Source: Ciborinia camelliae (Eukaryota > Ascomycota > Leotiomycetes > Helotiales > Sclerotiniaceae). From it: 64,000 nucleotides of DNA. Under the pieces are notes generated by a model. That model was not told the origin of the DNA, made no database searches, and saw nothing but the letters and a program-made list of their open reading frames with translations. The position numbers and the translations under genes are program-made. This document shows positions 11,860 through 51,586 of this stretch, piece by piece. The stretch spans positions 186,001-250,000 of the forward strand of contig JANPYM010000016.1 in assembly GCA_025890175.1 (NCBI GenBank), written 5' to 3'. The stretch's first letter is position 1. Each line of letters begins with the position of its first letter.

Positions 11860-12387
11860 GGTTGTATCTGGTTGTGTGGTTTTCTCGTTGGAAATTGGTT
11901 GTGAGATGGCTAATGATTTGATATGCTTTGGTTTGGTTTGTTTTGAACACCGTGCAGCGTCAGTAATTCCAACTAATATGCGTGATGGGTATTGTAATGA
12001 GTGATATTATGAGGCAGTGAATATATATAAAGATCTTCCGTGATGAATCAGACGAAGGAAAGAAAATACTTCTATGGCTGTATTCGCAAAAGGGTGGAAA
12101 AGATTATTCGCAGAGCTGCCAGCAGCGTAAAGATAAAAGTCTAGGACGAGAATCAAAGTAAAGTATGGGAAAATGAAATATAGGAAATCGTGTGGATACC
12201 AGATGCCGATGGAGATCGGAGTGGAAGAGCAGGGGAATGGAGGGTTCTTGTAGTTTTGGTCTCATTCACGAAACTTCATTGTGTCGGATGGCTTCTTTGT
12301 ATTTAAGATCGATTTTGGCTTTGTTGGGGATCAGGTCTTTGATGTTATTGTACATTGAAATCTATTTTTGAGGGCTTGAATGAATGG

Positions 12388-12638
12388 GGCTTTGTGAGAT
12401 TCTTTGTAGGAAGTTCTAACAAGACTCTTGTGGGGGCTTCGGTGAAAGGAGCTTGGTAAGATTCTTTGTAGGAAAGTCTAACAATACTTTGTGAGCAATA
12501 GTCTCAAAGCATCTTTATCCTCACCAACCTAGATGTTAGAACTTCCTACAAAGGAGCTTTGTAAGATTCTTTGTAGGAAAATCTAACAATATTTTGTGAG
12601 GAATAGTCTCAAAGCATCTTTATCCACACCAGCCTAGA
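12388..12638. repeat. 86-bp tandem-spaced direct repeat with a 19-bp foldback arm
   Basis: Two direct copies of 86 bp lie at 12448-12533 and 12553-12638 and differ at about six positions. A partial third copy of the repeat start lies at 12388-12421. The 19-bp spacer between the full copies (12534-12552) is an exact reverse complement of 12403-12421, so the unit can fold back on itself. No open frame is conserved. This is a non-coding repeated element; a small foldback or MITE-like relic is possible. Confidence 0.75.
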
Positions 12639-14490: not shown

Positions 14491-16580
14491 ATGCTTTTAA
14501 GATTTCGTGGTCCCGATGGAACCGTCCGGATTACTGTTGAAGCAAATGAAACTTTTGGTCAACTTGGTGTAAAGGTTAGCCTACAATCAGTTGCATATAT
14601 CTCTCTGAACTCCTATTGATATGCTATAGCTTGTAAAACTTCTCCCTCCGAACCTCGACCCGAAATCTTTAACACTTTCGAATGCGCCGAATGGTGGGGA
14701 CGTCAAACTTCTTATAGATATTGCGAGAGCCAGAGTCTCCCAGATTGGTCTCAAGTAAGTTAGGGGTGTATAGAATCTATGAGTTCTTGTGCTGACAAAT
14801 TGAAGAAATGGTGATATGGTATTCATTAATTACAAGCTCTTGGATAGTCTTGGAAATGGTGATTCAACTACTTCCACCTTGACTTCCCATACATCGGGTC
14901 TCCTCTCCTCAACAAATCGTTTAAACGGAAACGTTGTTCTACCAGAATCAATACCTATCAATGCGCCAGCTAAAGAAGTAACGTCGCCGTCTGAAAAGGT
15001 CAAGAATCCTTGGGAAGTTGTTCAACAATCCGATCTCGATAATAGGTTAGACAAGAAAGATGGAAAGATTCCTAGGAAGAAGGATCTAAAAATGTGTCGA
15101 CATGGTGAGAAGGGAATGTGCGACTACTGCATGCCGTTGGAACCATTCAATGCGGAGTACCTGGCCGAAAGAAAAATCAAGAATCTCTCGTTCCACTCAT
15201 ATTTGCGAAAGATCAACTCGGCGACCAACAAGCCGGAGTTAGGAAGCTCTTTCATGCCACCGTTGACGGAGCCATACTATCGTGTAAAAAAGAACTGCCC
15301 ATCAGGACATCCCCAGTGGCCGGAAGGTATCTGTACAAAGTGTCAACCAAGCGCAATAACTCTACAGCCGCAGGCATTCCGTATGGTGGATCATGTTGAA
15401 TTTGCGCAGGCAAGTCTGATCGAAAACTTGCTGAAGTTCTGGAGATCTACAGGTGCACAACGTTTTGGATATCTATACGGACGCTACGAGGAGTACACAG
15501 AAGTGCCGTTAGGAGTCAAGGCTGTTGTGGAAGCCATCTACGAACCGCCACAAGTCGACGAATTGGATGGCGTCACATTGAACGAATGGGAATCCGAAAA
15601 AGACATCGACGAGATGGCTAGATTATGCGGCATGGAAAGAGTTGGTGTCATCTGGACTGATCTAATTGACTCAGGTGCATCAGATGGTACTGTCATATGC
15701 AAAAGACATATTGATTCATATTATTTATCATCTTTGGAAATCGCATTTTCAGCCCGTTTACAAGCAAAGCACCCCAAGCCGACAAAATGGAGCGATACAG
15801 GCAAATTCGGTTCGAATTTCGTTACCTGTGTAATAACAGCCGATGAGACGGGAGGAATTACCATATCTGCCTACCAAGTCTCAAACTCGGCCGTGGAGAT
15901 GGTTCGAGCAGATATTGTCGAACCCTCCGCTGATCCTGCCGTGATGATCGTTCGTAGCGAAGGAGACGATGATTCCGACACGAGCGCACGATACATTCCT
16001 GAAGTATTTTTTCGAAAGATCAACGAGTATGGTAGGAGTGTTCAAGAAAATGCTAAGCCGTCTTTTCCGGTTGAGTATCTACTCGTCACATTAACCCATG
16101 GATTTCCTAGCGATCCCAAACCAGTATTCATGGCTACGAGTTCTTTTACTATTGAGAATCGTTTGGTCATTGGTCAGGAACAGGATCTCAAGGACGCTGG
16201 AAAGCAATTGGGACTTGACAAAAACGGACAGCTCACCCAATCTAGCGATGGTATCTTAGCAGTATCTGACTTCCATCTCCTCTGCTTCATATATAGTATG
16301 GGCATTTTAAGCAAAGTCCGTACTTTAATTTCCTTCTTCACACCCATAAGTCCGATGCTAATATACTTCTTTGTAGGAAGAAATGGCACTTCTCTGTCGT
16401 GTTGCTACACAACACGATTTAGCAGATGGATATCAATTAATATCAACACCTGGATGGGCAAATTTCCTTGCAATTTTACAATCGACTGGTGAGCGACCCC
16501 CAAAACGTCAGTCGCCATTCGACGAAGATGGCCCTGCAGAGCATCTTGCTAAAAGGGTTGGCAGGGTAAGGCTAAATTGA
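14491..16580 (+). CDS. NPL4: Nuclear protein localization protein 4 (Cdc48 cofactor)
   Basis: Four exons (14491-14574, 14630-14754, 14806-16315, 16377-16580) give 640 residues. Npl4 pairs with Ufd1 on the Cdc48/p97 unfoldase to unfold polyubiquitinated substrates in ER-associated degradation. Residues 1-80 form the UBX-like fold ([14 protein letters not shown], then [13 protein letters not shown]). Zinc-binding knuckles follow as [20 protein letters not shown] and [19 protein letters not shown]. The central MPN-like domain includes [19 protein letters not shown] and GVIWTDLI. The C-terminal domain has [20 protein letters not shown] and [14 protein letters not shown]. The last intron (GTCCGT donor, 61 nt) is required to restore the [10 protein letters not shown] reading. 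Every exon joins in phase. Divergent from SEC66. Confidence 0.96.
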
Positions 16581-22737: not shown

Positions 22738-22929
22738 ACTCCAGTGACGCGTAAGTCCCTGCCCTCATTCCAAAAATGAAGGTTCCCTCCTTCGGCATCT
22801 ATCAGTTACATATGCTAATGGTGATTGATATCTAGAGTGGTTAGCGTGTCGTTCTTATACTATTCCTCCATCCCAGGGGATTAATATGATGTTATGCGAA
22901 AGTCGTGGGTTCGACACCCACCTGGAGTA
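22738..22929 (+). tRNA. tRNA-Ile(UAU) with an anticodon-loop intron and an 85-nt D-loop interruption
   Basis: The acceptor stem 22738-22744 (ACTCCAG) pairs 7/7 with 22922-22928 (CTGGAGT), followed by the discriminator A22929. TG (22745-22746) and the D-stem ACGC (22747-22750) follow; the D-stem partner GCGT is at 22844-22847. Between them lie 22751-22835 (GTAAGT...GCTAAT...CTAG), then a normal D-loop AGTGGTTA. The anticodon arm starts TCGTT-CT-TAT-A at 22849-22859. It resumes as A-TGCGA at 22894-22899 after a roughly 34-nt intron at the canonical 37/38 site, and that intron contains an ATA that can pair with the anticodon. The variable loop is AAGTC. The T-arm is GTGGG-TTCGACA-CCCAC (22905-22921) with an intact B box. 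A T-run terminator starts at 22962. The anticodon stem has one T-T mismatch and one G-U. The A box is split by the D-loop insert. It may be functional only if the insert is removed, or it may be a pseudogene. Confidence 0.72.
22751..22835 (+). other. Spliceosomal-like GT-AG insertion inside the tRNA-Ile D-loop
   Basis: An 85-nt insert with GTAAGT at its 5' end, a GCTAAT branch-like box about 17 nt before the 3' end, and a CTAG 3' end. This is the same signal set as the protein-gene introns in this window. A small hairpin (ATG-AAGG / CCTT-CGG-CAT with a 3-nt bulge) lies in the middle. Removing exactly this segment restores a standard 8-nt D-loop. Confidence 0.65.
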
Positions 22930-23857
22930 TCAATTCCAGTTGACACAACAAACCGGTTTACTTTTTTTTTTGTTTTTTTTGTTTTGGGGAATTTTTTGGT
23001 TGGGGGTGCGGGTGGTGCTGTGGTTTTTTGGTTTTGCTGGTTTGGTTTGGTTTGGTGCGGGTGCAGGTGGGTTTCTAATGGTGCCCTTTTGGGGTTCAAA
23101 CTCGGATTGCCATAGACTTGGGTTCAGCTGTACGTACGTGTCGGGACGGGATCCGCTTCCGGAGGATTCTTCCACATCCATGTGTCGGGTACTTCTGATC
23201 AGAGCTTCAAACTACGTGCTCAGCTATTTTATTAACAGATTCAAGCTTGCCGGATATTATTTCTCGACATAATCCTCACGCCTATAGAAATCCCGACTGC
23301 CGTATCTAATCTATTCAAGGGACTTATTACATGTCTGTCTGTCGGTAGGTATCATGGAAATTCCATTCGGATTGCAAAGAGTGAAGATCCATCCGGGTAT
23401 ACGACATTTGGAAACCCATTCTATAATATGTCGTAAATGGTTTAAAAGATGTGAATAATTCTACCATCTGCCTCTACGTAGGTACGGTAGGTAGGTAGGT
23501 ACGAATACCTAGCTTCCATTTGCTCAGATGTCATAAATTCATGTATGATCAGATTGCCCGAGGTGATCCAATCAAAGTGAGTAGCTGATACCCTCAAATT
23601 CATATGAATCTCACTCCAGTGCACTTTTCTATTTCCAAACCGACTCTCTAACGTACGTTTATCAATCTTGCAAGACCCGTGTTCCTCCATCTACTGCGCT
23701 TCTTTGTTTCTTTCTTTCACCAACGGATGTTATTATTATTAGCAGGACTCGCGCCCCCCAATATCTCTACCAGGCATGAATCTCTCATCCTCCGTAAAAC
23801 CTCTCATTCCATTCCATGCATCCCCTAAACTCCATGGTTTCTTCTTCGTCCAAACTC
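22930..23857. other. Intergenic, no further gene seen
   Basis: T- and G-rich stretch (about 22960-23080) then unique spacer to the 3' end of the copper transporter gene. A (GTAG)n tract lies near 23480-23500. No coding or RNA gene was recognised apart from the tRNA terminator. Confidence 0.5.
22962..22971 (+). terminator. Pol III terminator T-run downstream of tRNA-Ile
   Basis: Ten consecutive T residues beginning 33 nt after the discriminator base, followed by further T-rich sequence. Enough for RNA polymerase III release, leaving a fairly long 3' trailer. Confidence 0.55.
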
Positions 23858-42287: not shown

Positions 42288-42540
42288 TTTGGTTTGGGGG
42301 GTTTCTTGCCTTGCCTTGCCTTGCCCTTGGGGACTTTGTATTTATTTACGTACGTACATACGTACCTACCTACCTAGTCGTGCATGAATCTCCTTGGTCA
42401 TATACATAGGTACCTTACATACATAATGAATGAATCGTCAATCGTCGAATTTTGAATCTTGAATCTCTCATCCTGTCTGTATGTTAAAGTTGGTCTTGGT
42501 CTTGGTCTTGGTATATCTATATCTATATCTATATCTTCTT

Positions 42541-42785
42541 AGGTAGGTAGGTAGTAAGTAGGTAGTAAGTAGGTAGTAAGTAGGTAGTAAGTAGGTAGTA
42601 AGTAGGTAGTAAGTAGGTAGTAAGTAGGTAGTAAGTAGGTAGTAAGTAGGTAGTAAGTAGTAGGTAGGAAGTAGTAGGTAGGAAGTAGTAGGTAGGAAGT
42701 AGTAGGTAGGAAGTAGTAGGTAGGAAGTAGTAGGTAGGAAGTAGTAGGTAGGAAGTAGTATGTAGGAAGTAGTAGGTAGGAAGTA
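42541..42785. repeat. Two adjoining minisatellites, 11-bp then 14-bp units
   Basis: The left part (about 42541-42660) is built of GTAGGTAGTAA, roughly ten copies. The right part (about 42655-42785) is built of GTAGTAGGTAGGAA, roughly nine copies with one ATG variant. Both derive from the GTAG word common in this genome and give repeat-only frames on the minus strand. Confidence 0.9.
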
Positions 42786-43280
42786 TATAGTATAATACCC
42801 AACTACATTTTGATCGTTATTATATTATTCATGTTAATGTTCATGTTCATGTTCATGTTAATGTTAATGTCACAGTTAAAAACATCACAGCAGCACATCA
42901 CAGCACATCACAGCAGCACATCACAGCAGCACATCACATCAATCACAGAACAGAACAACCCCAAAATGGCGAAAAACGGAAACGGAAACGGAAACCCCAA
43001 GGCATGTTTTTTTGGGGGTTGGTGGGTGGGTGGGTACCTAGGTATGTAAAAAGTTCATAGTTCATAAAAACTCCCTCGCTTGTTTGCTTGCTACCTTGCT
43101 GCTACCTTGCTTGCTATTGCATCAATACTTTTATTTTGGTTTCTTTTGGGTAAAGAAAATAGGAAAGGAAAAGAAAGGAAATACAATGGCTTGCTTGAAT
43201 GAATCAATGAAACTACTCTTCCCCATTAAACTCTGCTCATCTCTCCATCTCAGCATCTCAGCATCTCAGCATCGCATCAA

Positions 43281-47970: not shown

Positions 47971-49261
47971 GTCGTTAGCAGCTATATGCGAGATATGGAC
48001 AGGAGCTATCGTAGTTTCGGGGGTGGGGATAGAGGCAGTCAGAATTCATCAGGGGGATCTTTAGGTATAAGCGAAACCAATCGTGTGGCACAATTTTTGA
48101 CCAGAGATATAGTTTGTCTCAAAGGCAGCAGATGGGGATTGTAAATCAATAGGATAAAGGTTGATGTCGATGGATGCTGCCGTTGACGCTTGAAGATGGT
48201 GGGGGATGTAAACCTGGGGATTCTATATTATCCGAAGCGGGAAGCCGGTGGGTCCATTCAAGATACACAAAGAATATCAAATTGTATTTTCTTAAGACAA
48301 ATGTCTTCGGTGGGGTGAATTCCTTCAAGTCACTACTACAATTGGTATGCTAGTTTGCCGGTTTGCCGATGTGATAAGGAAGGAGGTGAATTTGGGAATT
48401 GTATTCATGTGAGCACTGGGGGATAGCTATCCCTAATTCTATCAGGATGCCAGCAAGAACGGCGAGAAGGTGAGCTTGTTATGTGAAGATGAGCCTCGTC
48501 ATTGTTTACATTGACTGGAACTAGTCAACCAGCAGGATGCAATTTTATATCGGCAATACCCGGAGCTGTTGTTGCCCTGTTGCCATCACCAATCTTATTT
48601 AAATTTTATATGAAGAAGTTTTGCACTATCAATTCTTTCTCTATTGAGTCACTGTTTCTCAAAGACTTCAAAAAGAAAGGCTCAGACTGATCACTGTCTA
48701 CAATTTAACCCTTATTACTTTTTGAAGAATTTTGCACTCATCTTCCTCTCGATCTGAGATGGCGAGGCTACTTGACAAGGCTAGTTCATCTTAACTTGAA
48801 CTGTTGGGTATGGAATCTAAATTGGAGATTTCAAGGGGAATGCATGAAGTACCCAACGCCTGCCTACCCTTTGCTCATTATTTACAATATAATACAAGAC
48901 AGGACAGCCAGCATAAGCGGGATCTATATCAAAGCTAAGCAGAAACTTCCTATCCAAACCACTCTACCTTATCACCTACACATTTGGTGATAGCAAGTCA
49001 TACTTGACACATCTTTCAACCTACGTATATTGTTAGCATTTGGGAAGTGATTGCTAATCATAAGAAATCAGGATGAAGGGATTACAAAACTATAATAAAA
49101 GCAGAGGTTGTGTAGTACAAGTGGGAGAAAGGGGGGTTCTAGCTTGGCATGGGCTCGGCATTGATGCCAAGCTATATACAACATAAAGAGTGTTGAGTTG
49201 GCAGAGTTTAAAAAAAGGAGGGGGGTGCCAATCCCAAAAAGTAAGGGGAGTGTAAGGATAT
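47971..49261. other. Intergenic, no gene seen
   Basis: 1.3-kb spacer between the divergent upstream end of the membrane-protein gene and the 3' end of the ABC1 kinase gene. Short frames show no similarity. A poly-A/G patch (AAAAAAAGGAGGGGGG-like) is near 49210-49226. Confidence 0.5.
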
Positions 49262-51586
49262 CTAGACACAGCCTAGATAATGTTGTATAACATGCTGATT
49301 TGAGCAGGAGGCATGGGCCAATCCAATTTGGAACATTGGCTGCCGATCACTAGCCAACTGCCAGACCCATGGAACATGAATATGGTTGACAAATATTTCA
49401 CCAAAATAGAAGGTAGTTGTGATAAGTGGAAGGGTGGTGCAGACATGACAGTTGAGAACAAAACAGAAGAGAAGAAAGGAAGGCAAAGAAATAGGGAACA
49501 TACATCTTCAATGGAAGCTTGCAAGAACTTTCTAGCTTCTAAACCTGCCCAAACCTTCAATATAGAGAAATCACCTTGTCGTAACATTCCACCTCCACTC
49601 TGTGCTCCCAATTCTCTCAGAATTGGTAGTGCAGAAGAGAGCAAGTCAATATTAGGATTAAGACTCCTGCCAATGCCCTCTAGCAACAAAATGCTGATGA
49701 CCACATTGACAAAATCCCCCTCCATCCGAACATGATGAGTTCGAACCATCGAGAGGACCTCATTTAGTATGTCCCCTATCTTCATGTTTCCCAATGCTAA
49801 TGTACGACTCTTGACTCCTAGGACAAGATGTTGCATTTTAAGAGAATAAATCTCTTCATCGATGACTGCATCAGGTTGTCGGCACCTTTGACACATCAAA
49901 TGACCTGCTTTATAGCCATCAAATTCAGCAACAGCCTTAAAAAGATCAAGGAAGTTCCTTCGATTAGTTGCATTTAGTTCTGTGACTAGGCCTGTATCAA
50001 TGAAGATCAATTGAGGTCGGAATCCTTCTTTATCAAGTTTTGAAAGTTCTGCTTCCCATGCTTGAGGATTCTTTTTGTGCCGGTATGGCTGAAGTCTCGC
50101 CAGTACTTGTTCAGTAACATCTGGTTGAGACTGTGGATCTTCGTCTTTATGTTTTCTGAAAGGGAGGTTGGGCTTCTCAGATTGGTAAAAGCGGACCATG
50201 ATATTACCTGGATGAAGGTCGGCATGGATAAAATTATCAATTAGTAACATGCGTAAGAATGCATCCAACCCTTCATCTGCAATATCCTGTTGAAATACTC
50301 CACCACCATTTTCCATAAAGTCAGATAATGGTATACCCTGTGCAAATTCCTCTACCAGTACTTGTCTTGTGGTGAACTGAGTATATGGGAACGGGAACCA
50401 TGCTGTTGTTCTCGATTTGAAATTCTTTCGGAAGATTGATAAATTTGCAGCTTCAATTCTAAGATCTAGCTGCAATCTCATCATTTGTCCAAACTGATCG
50501 ACTTCATCTGGGAATGATAGCCACTCAAATGTAGGAATCAAATTGATTGCTGAAGCAAAGACCCACATAATCCGTAGATCTCGTCTAACAACCCTTTCTA
50601 CCCCTGGATGGAGAACCTTGATAGCAACATAACTTGATGGAACTCTTTGTGGTGTACTCTTAATTAATGTATCAACATTTTTACGCACATTTCGTCGTAG
50701 ATTTGTGGGCTCTTGAAGATCTGGATCTCCTGGTGTTGCCAACCCAGGTTTCAGCTTTGCCTTGTAAACTTGTGCTATAGCTCCCACTCCCAGAGGCTTT
50801 TCCTCGAATTCTTCAAATATATCTTCAAAGGGTCGGCCGTCAAATGCTCTGCTTATAATTCTTTTGGTGTCATGTAACGAGTGCGCGGGTGCATTGGAAT
50901 GGAGTTGTGACATGATCTCGCACATCTGCATAGGGAAGATATCTGATCTAGAGGCGGCCCATTGTCCAAGCTAAGAAGTCAGCGAAAACCAGCCCAAGGG
51001 GAATTGGATGCTATACCTTAATAAATGCAGGCCCGGCTCGTTCCATGGCCTTAACTAAGAACCTGTACCACCATAAAGTACCTGTCCGCTCATTATCTCG
51101 CATTTTATCCCTAGGTCCAAAATATGCAGCAGGTATAGTAATGATAACTGGAACGAATATAACCACAAGGTGTAGGAAGCGTATGCTTGTGCAGAGTGGT
51201 TCCCATAGATAGGCATCTAGGAAATAGATTATACTATCTTTTAGTCGTCGAAGCCCATGAACATCATCGCCAACCTTCTTACTGATTTCCTCCCTTGATG
51301 CCTCCAGCATTCGCGCCTCTGCAGTCATCTCGGTTCCACCATTATCCTTTTCTGATAGCCGGACAAACATAGCCGGACTCAAGCTCGCTGCAGCTGCCAG
51401 TATTAAGCCCTTCTTCTGCGGAGGAGATTTGAATTGCCATTTCCCCCATCCCCCCCCTCCTCTGCCGCCTCCATTTCTATATGACTGTCTTGTCGCTAGT
51501 TGAATGTTCCGATATTGAATCGAGGGTCGTATTCTTGGAAGGGTCTGACGAAGACATGTTCGACCTATGGCCAAAAACATCCTCAT
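49262..51586 (-). CDS. Mitochondrial ABC1/UbiB-family atypical kinase (ADCK2/MCP2-like)
   Basis: Exons 51586-51017 and 50970-49504 are secure; a 33-nt last exon (49294-49262) after a 209-nt intron is probable, giving about 689 residues. The N-terminus is basic (RTCLRQTLPRIRPSIQYRN) and mitochondrial-looking, with a hydrophobic segment FLHLVVIFVPVIITIPAAYF near 140-165. The ABC1 signature KxGQ is formed across the first intron as AFIK-LGQWAASRSDIFP. The kinase-like core follows: GVGAIAQVYKA in place of a P-loop, a lysine in YVAIKVLHPG (about 308), HADLHPGNIMV (about 439-449) and DTG at 515-517 instead of DFG. The DTG variant and insert layout fit the ADCK2/yeast Mcp2 branch, tied to mitochondrial lipid and coenzyme Q homeostasis. 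Divergent from cytochrome c heme lyase. Confidence 0.9.

Follow-up and report, generated by a model that had tools for sequence, protein, structure and literature searches.

Two genes for the AUA-reading isoleucine tRNA of the fungus Ciborinia camelliae are each interrupted, at one and the same position of the D-arm, by an insert that bears the signals of an mRNA intron, in addition to a further insert in the anticodon loop. It appears quite likely, judging from the sequences of both loci, that these are functional nuclear tRNA-Ile(UAU) genes transcribed by RNA polymerase III (Pol III), in which a U2-type spliceosomal intron between positions 13 and 14 is combined with an anticodon-loop intron.

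Results

A tRNA-Ile(UAU) gene with two inserts

The window, that is, the whole stretch of 64,000 nucleotides analysed here, corresponds to C8:186001-250000 of an assembly of 46,204,555 bases (46.2 Mb) in 27 contigs, which was the genome searched throughout. Positions 22738-22929 of the window are a tRNA-Ile(UAU) gene with two inserts, one of 85 nt in the D-arm and one of 34 nt in the anticodon loop (Table 1). The initial annotation had described a tRNA with a plain T-arm, variable loop and intron-bearing anticodon arm, the missing 5' part of which (ACTCCAG-TG-ACGC) lies upstream of an 85-nt insert with GTAAGT, GCTAAT and CTAG, and a scripted check recovered all the described elements where they had been placed. 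Across the insert, the acceptor stem pairs at 7/7 positions (ACTCCAG with CTGGAGT) and the D-stem at 4/4 (ACGC with GCGT), so that the insert falls exactly between positions 13 and 14, at the boundary of the D-stem and the D-loop. The flanking bases differ between the two junctions and leave no room for shifting the insert, so that its GT and AG ends are set by the tRNA fold. The anticodon stem includes one mismatch, T31.T39, that was absent from the first description.

That removal of the insert yields a standard tRNA was confirmed by running ARAGORN with and without positions 22751-22835. Without them, the program reads a tRNA-Ile(tat) of 73 nt with a standard cloverleaf and a 34-nt intron at 37/38; with the insert kept, it reads no tRNA at this locus, and none in the whole window. 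Likewise, there is no gathering match to Rfam in the window, and a threshold relaxed to E<=10 brings up no tRNA match for the gene either.

Table 1. Parts of the first tRNA-Ile(UAU) gene and its flanks (window positions), with the counterparts in the second copy
Feature	Position	Strand	Remarks
TATA-like / TTCAAAAA upstream element, AATAAATGTTCAAAAA	22694..22709	+	copy 2: TTAAATATTCAAACAA
Probable Pol III start region and 5' leader, CAAACAAACATGCCAA	22722..22737	+	partly shared with copy 2, CATCAAACATGACAAAC; start putative
tRNA exon 1, positions 1-13	22738..22750	+	acceptor 5' strand ACTCCAG, TG, D-stem 5' strand ACGC
GT-AG insert at 13/14, 85 nt, spliceosomal-type intron	22751..22835	+	copy 2: same position and signals, 58 nt
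5' splice site GTAAGT	22751..22756	+	identical in copy 2
Branch-site-like GCTAAT	22814..22819	+	A to exon 2, 18 nt; copy 2: TACTAAC, 15 nt
3' splice site CTAG	22832..22835	+	copy 2: ATAG
tRNA exon 2	22836..22859	+	D-loop AGTGGTTA, D-stem 3' strand GCGT, anticodon arm up to A37, anticodon TAT
Ordinary anticodon-loop intron, 34 nt, at 37/38	22860..22893	+	read by ARAGORN in the form without 22751-22835
tRNA exon 3	22894..22929	+	anticodon 3' strand, variable loop, T-arm GTGGGTTCGACACCCAC (B box), acceptor 3' strand CTGGAGT, A73
T10 run, Pol III terminator candidate	22962..22971	+	starts 33 nt after the gene

A second, diverged copy with the same interruption

BLAST with this gene against its own assembly returned the gene itself and one further match, C1:4880430-4880531 on the minus strand, and BLAST with the latter returned the same two genes only. 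The second copy is a diverged tRNA-Ile(UAU) gene that consists of ACCCCGG-TG-ACGC, a 58-nt insert of the form GTAAGT...TACTAAC...ATAG at the identical position, and then AATGGTTAGCGT. Here too, ARAGORN reads nothing with the insert and, only after its removal, an Ile(tat) of 73 nt with a standard cloverleaf and a 28-nt anticodon-loop intron, whereas the Rfam tRNA model scores the locus at 15.7 bits, under the cut-off of 29, and with the wrong 5' half. The count by BLAST is thus two tRNA-Ile(UAU) genes, both interrupted at 13/14, the second with the better branch site.

Apart from GTAAGT, CTAAY and TAG, which both inserts keep, their sequences have largely diverged, and their lengths are unequal; the exons, too, differ at several places. 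One of the differences is compensatory: acceptor pair 6-67 is A-T in the first copy and G-C in the second, with the two strands located on opposite sides of the insert. Both copies retain a T-arm paired at 5/5 positions, a D-stem paired at 4/4 and the anticodon loop, and the second has a single stem mismatch, C3.A70. Furthermore, both genes start with A1, paired to U72 (window positions 22738 and 22928 in the first copy). Such a first pair is typical of initiator tRNAs in eukaryotes and unusual among elongator tRNAs.

Splice signals of the inserts

Both inserts (2/2) combine GT...AG at fold-fixed ends with a GTAAGT 5' site and a CTAAY branch site located 10-40 nt upstream of the YAG (18 nt for GCTAAT and 15 nt for TACTAAC), as adopted here for U2-type introns. 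GTAAGT is complementary to U1. When the first 270 of the 300 nt upstream of exon 2 were shuffled 40,000 times, the partner strand arose in 0.23% of the shuffles for the first copy (7/7 plus 4/4) and in 1.8% for the second (6/7 plus 4/4), and the partner strand followed by GTRNGT arose in 0/40,000 for each. In the window, GTAAGT is found at 0.028% of strand positions, a value raised by a GTAAGT-bearing tandem repeat near 42.5-42.8 kb, and a YAG with CTAAY 8-38 nt upstream is found at 0.093% of positions. Given that the same signals occupy one tRNA position in two diverged genes, chance is not a reasonable explanation.

For comparison with mRNA introns, Botryotinia Npl4 and ABC1-kinase proteins were aligned to the window, and the intron boundaries were set by eye. 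In the resulting small sample of four introns, the lengths are 46, 55, 61 and 483 nt, a span that includes the 85 and 58 nt of the inserts. The GCTAAT hexamer recurs in one of these introns, in the Npl4 gene; the 5' sites are GTTAGC, GTCCGT, GTATAG and GTATGT, none of them GTAAGT.

Introns in the D-arm of eukaryotic tRNAs are not without precedent. The initial annotation had pointed to the D-loop introns of red algae, and the parallel extends to tRNA-Ile(UAU) itself, which in Cyanidioschyzon has three introns with hBHBh' motifs, in the D-arm, the anticodon and the T-arm, as reported in PMC9602550. The present genes resemble it in the isoacceptor and in the combination of a D-arm with an anticodon-loop intron; unlike the hBHBh' introns described there, the D-arm inserts have GT-AG ends, a branch site and the length of an mRNA intron, with no bulge-helix-bulge (BHB) motif detected by a test that, as seen below, has no power. 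The nucleomorph tRNAs, with short introns in the D- and T-arms (Kawach 2005, as described in PMC4090602), are similar in that their genes, likewise eukaryotic, hold more than a single intron, in part in the D-arm. In Guillardia theta, the D- and T-arm introns are given as 3-24 nt long, and their removal mechanism is called unknown (PMC4090602); the account of them there mentions no splice consensus, in contrast to the 58-85 nt and the splice signals observed here. For eukaryotic nuclear or nucleomorph tRNAs, the D-arm introns covered in that review are those of a red alga and of nucleomorphs (PMC4090602).

These precedents, which include non-canonical introns in both the red-algal tRNA-Ile(UAU) (PMC9602550) and nucleomorph tRNAs (PMC4090602), speak for the possibility that a non-canonical tRNA intron is present at this site, excised at a BHB-like structure by the tRNA splicing endonuclease and sealed by tRNA ligase, as has been proposed for Cyanidioschyzon tRNA-Ile(UAU), in which case the GT-AG ends would be coincidental. 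We consider this unlikely, because in both copies the ends set by the fold coincide with perfect splice signals. BHB-like pairing compared with shuffles gave P=0.43 and 0.11 for the insert junctions, and P=0.15 and 0.11 for the anticodon introns, which should pass; because the test fails equally on the latter, it has no power and does not count against the endonuclease.

Transcription signals

The features of both loci suggest transcription by Pol III. In the second copy, a T8 run begins with the fifth base after the gene; inside the gene, neither copy contains TTTT, an absence common by chance, seen in 43% and 49% of window stretches. The T-arms of both copies contain a B-box sequence. In each copy, the insert divides the A box in two, as the initial annotation had proposed for the first.

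The upstream regions of tRNA genes read by ARAGORN at the loci L005-L066, 66 distinct regions in all, are rich in A and poor in G over the 70 nt that precede the gene, and TATA, AATAAA or TAAATA is found at -60 to -31 in 44/66 of them, compared to 13.7% of window 30-mers. Such a motif is also present upstream of the two Ile(UAU) genes, the motif set having been chosen with both in view. Measured from exon 1, the upstream composition score is 4.6 for the first copy and 14.9 for the second, values equalled or exceeded by 64% and 21% of the tRNA genes, respectively; measured from exon 2, it is -1.8 and 2.7, equalled or exceeded by 94% and 74%. The upstream composition of both genes is, accordingly, tRNA-like when measured from exon 1 and less so when measured from exon 2, although the score of the first copy is average and not striking, with 7.1% of window 70-mers scoring as high.

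Transcription of both loci by Pol II, either into a short capped RNA or within a longer transcript, with mRNA-like splicing followed by excision through RNase P and RNase Z, would account for the split A box and the spliceosomal signals without any splicing of a Pol III RNA. This scenario, which we regard as no less improbable than endonuclease cleavage, is at odds with the T10 and T8 runs just downstream, the lack of an internal TTTT, the tRNA-like upstream region and the B boxes; moreover, no ORF of at least 220 aa overlaps the first copy, with some shorter ORFs touching the ends of the gene.

Search for an uninterrupted gene and the use of AUA

No uninterrupted tRNA-Ile(UAU) gene was found in the genome by BLAST, two patterns of the 5' half or the tRNA model, searches that were not exhaustive. 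The pattern with an 8-nt D-loop gave 47 matches at <=2 mismatches, none perfect and one of them the second copy, compared to 65 for the reversed control, so that many of these matches are due to chance; the pattern with a 9-nt D-loop gave 18 matches at <=1 mismatch, again none perfect, with 13 for the reversed control. Several other matches are D-arms of other tRNAs, and in 7/18 matches of the 9-nt pattern, the D-arm is that of tRNA-Ile(AAU). Of the 65 matches to the two patterns, one is the second copy, 16 were checked, namely, the 14 others with a TTATA end as well as L116 and L111, and 48 were judged from their bases alone. ARAGORN reads no tRNA in any of the 14. For the single Ile(AAU) control that was run, L111, the program reports Ile(aat) with a 38-nt intron, and the acceptor stem pairs at 7/7 positions. 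Three of the 14, L132, L133 and L141, have a loose T-arm-like stretch and were rejected as normal genes, with acceptor pairing of at most 4/7 and no tRNA read by ARAGORN.

The genome search with RF00005 produced 62 places, 61 of them above the cut-off, from the 62 scored of 2182 candidates, and this list is incomplete because ARAGORN saw more tRNAs close to some of the listed places. On the collected tRNA loci, ARAGORN, which misassigns some intron-bearing genes, reported no anticodon TAT. With only the best candidates scored, a divergent uninterrupted tRNA-Ile(UAU) gene could have been missed. The AUA codon is in use, accounting for 7/490 codons in the exon of the ABC1-kinase gene, and the cell therefore needs either this tRNA or the reading of AUA by an inosine-bearing tRNA-Ile(AAU), which is a conceivable alternative.

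It is this need that has to be considered if both loci are taken for decaying pseudogenes or tRNA remnants, with AUA decoded either by a tRNA-Ile(UAU) that escaped detection or by an inosine-bearing tRNA-Ile(AAU). The single stem mismatch in each copy is compatible with such decay, as are the seven D-arms of the tRNA-Ile(AAU) type and the limited depth of the searches, in which RF00005 scored 62/2182 candidates and missed tRNAs seen by ARAGORN. According to a 2014 review, short insertions in the D- or T-arm of eukaryotic tRNA genes mostly affect a single gene among many synonymous ones, which is then presumed to be a pseudogene (PMC4090602); unlike in the cases characterized there, an insertion is present here in both genes found. 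The initial annotation had reasoned that normal copies elsewhere, together with an insert that is not conserved, would make this locus a pseudogene, an expectation that, as far as the searches reach, did not come true, given that the only other gene found carries an insert at the same position. What renders decay very unlikely, in our view, is that two diverged copies keep the junction, the splice signals, the T-arm (5/5), the D-stem (4/4) and the anticodon loop, and show a compensatory change in the acceptor stem, and that BLAST, the patterns and the tRNA model revealed no other candidate for tRNA-Ile(UAU) while AUA codons are in use.

Other interrupted tRNAs and the origin of the inserts

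Five patterns with a YAG directly before a D-arm matched 37 places besides the Ile(UAU) genes, none of them with a T-arm downstream as tested by script. By pattern, these matches number 2, 1, 23, 10 and 1, with 14, 10, 40, 22 and 2 in the reversed controls, and 14 of the 23 belong to one tandem repeat. Within these five D-arm shapes, with a YAG 3' site at 13/14, tRNA-Ile(UAU) is the only tRNA found to be so interrupted. At L127 (G000:C21:1206083-1206097, match at 151 of the reversed strand), a tRNA-like TGGCAGAGTGGTTAGC is followed by a weak B-box-like GTTCCGATCC; with no T-arm detected by the scripted test, the locus is perhaps a tRNA remnant.

There is no Rfam match to a group I or group II intron core at the inserts at E<=10, and 58-85 nt is too short for a self-splicing intron of either group. 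An exact exon-2 pattern has no match in the collections of viral and genome contigs; among fungi, the searches covered the genome of the window. A recent arrival of the inserts in tRNA genes as mobile, introner-like elements is hardly credible: introners do create GT-AG introns at new sites, but BLAST with the whole genes yields no third copy of either insert, the two inserts are unlike each other, and the identity of the site in both copies points to a single old insertion before the copies diverged.

Other features of the window

The window includes genes for Npl4 and an ABC1/aarF-type kinase (14491-16577 and 48979-51580), the former matching a Botryotinia convoluta cluster at 93% and the latter Botryotinia globosa at 97%; the nearest named proteins come from Botryotinia, Botrytis and Sclerotinia, which points to a Sclerotiniaceae-like fungus of the order Helotiales as the source. 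The last intron of the ABC1 gene appears unusually long, at 483 nt. TACC/GGTA microsatellites are numerous across the window. Imperfect direct repeats of 61-89 nt, spaced by 62 and 105 nt, occupy 12366-12638, and 11- and 14-nt tandem repeats with units of the GTAAGTAGGTA and AGTAGGTAGGAAGT types, the GTAAGTAGGTA type containing GTAAGT, occupy 42521-42812.

Discussion

On the whole, the interpretation given in the initial annotation is supported, with the involvement of the spliceosome as such deduced from the signals. Under the scenario that we favor, in which a tRNA gene served by Pol III carries a spliceosomal intron, the polymerase would transcribe the leader, exon 1, the insert, exon 2, the anticodon intron, exon 3 and the trailer, and end at the T-run, as suggested by the terminators and the upstream region. 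The major spliceosome would then recognize GTAAGT, CTAAY and YAG in the uncapped precursor, and the D-arm intron would leave as a lariat, in the nucleus, ahead of the anticodon intron. The restored D-arm would let the tRNA body fold, RNase P and RNase Z would process the termini, and the 34- or 28-nt anticodon-loop intron would fall to the tRNA splicing endonuclease and ligase. The stem mismatch in each copy (T31.T39 in the first, C3.A70 in the second) may indicate slow decay of the genes. We further lean, with somewhat less assurance, towards the view that every tRNA-Ile(UAU) of this lineage must pass through the spliceosome and then through the endonuclease, which would make the spliceosome an obligatory enzyme of tRNA maturation.

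The tRNA-Ile(UAU) gene of Saccharomyces cerevisiae, for which we know of no D-arm intron, has an intron, as do the genes described here. In that yeast, the intron is needed for the nuclear pseudouridylation of U34 and U36 by Pus1, as stated in PMC4090602. A precedent for splicing of the mRNA type is provided by the U6 snRNA gene of Schizosaccharomyces pombe, which contains an mRNA-type intron (Tani and Ohshima 1989, cited in PMC10484740). As in that case, an mRNA-type intron lies here within a short gene for a structured RNA, probably transcribed by Pol III; unlike in that case, the host is a tRNA, the first exon consists of the leader and 13 nt, the internal promoter is split by the intron, and the same transcript contains a second intron that belongs to another splicing system. 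The U6 gene of the present genome, a strong, full-length match (L068, G000:C25:1810274-1810380), has no intron; a second, weak U6 match, under the family cut-off, is located at C6:53104-53206. Whereas Pol III RNAs with a spliceosomal intron are known, we found no report in the open-licence literature of such an intron in a nuclear tRNA; what appears to be new is therefore the host.

Genes of this kind could go unnoticed on a wide scale, because both loci are missed by ARAGORN and by the Rfam tRNA model and because the paper on tRNAscan-SE 2.0, in its description of the detection of non-canonical introns, ties it to archaeal searches (PMC8450103). For such split tRNA genes, annotation pipelines would have a specific blind spot to mend.

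The finding that both AUA-reading tRNA genes identified in this fungus are cut by an mRNA-like intron suggests that the mRNA splicing machinery helps to make a tRNA. A GT-AG intron conserved in all known genes of one tRNA would break the separation of tRNA splicing from mRNA splicing. An uncapped tRNA precursor made by Pol III, with a very short first exon, would then be within the reach of the spliceosome, and the split A box raises the question of how TFIIIC reads the promoter. The decoding of AUA in this fungus would, then, depend on the capacity for pre-mRNA splicing.
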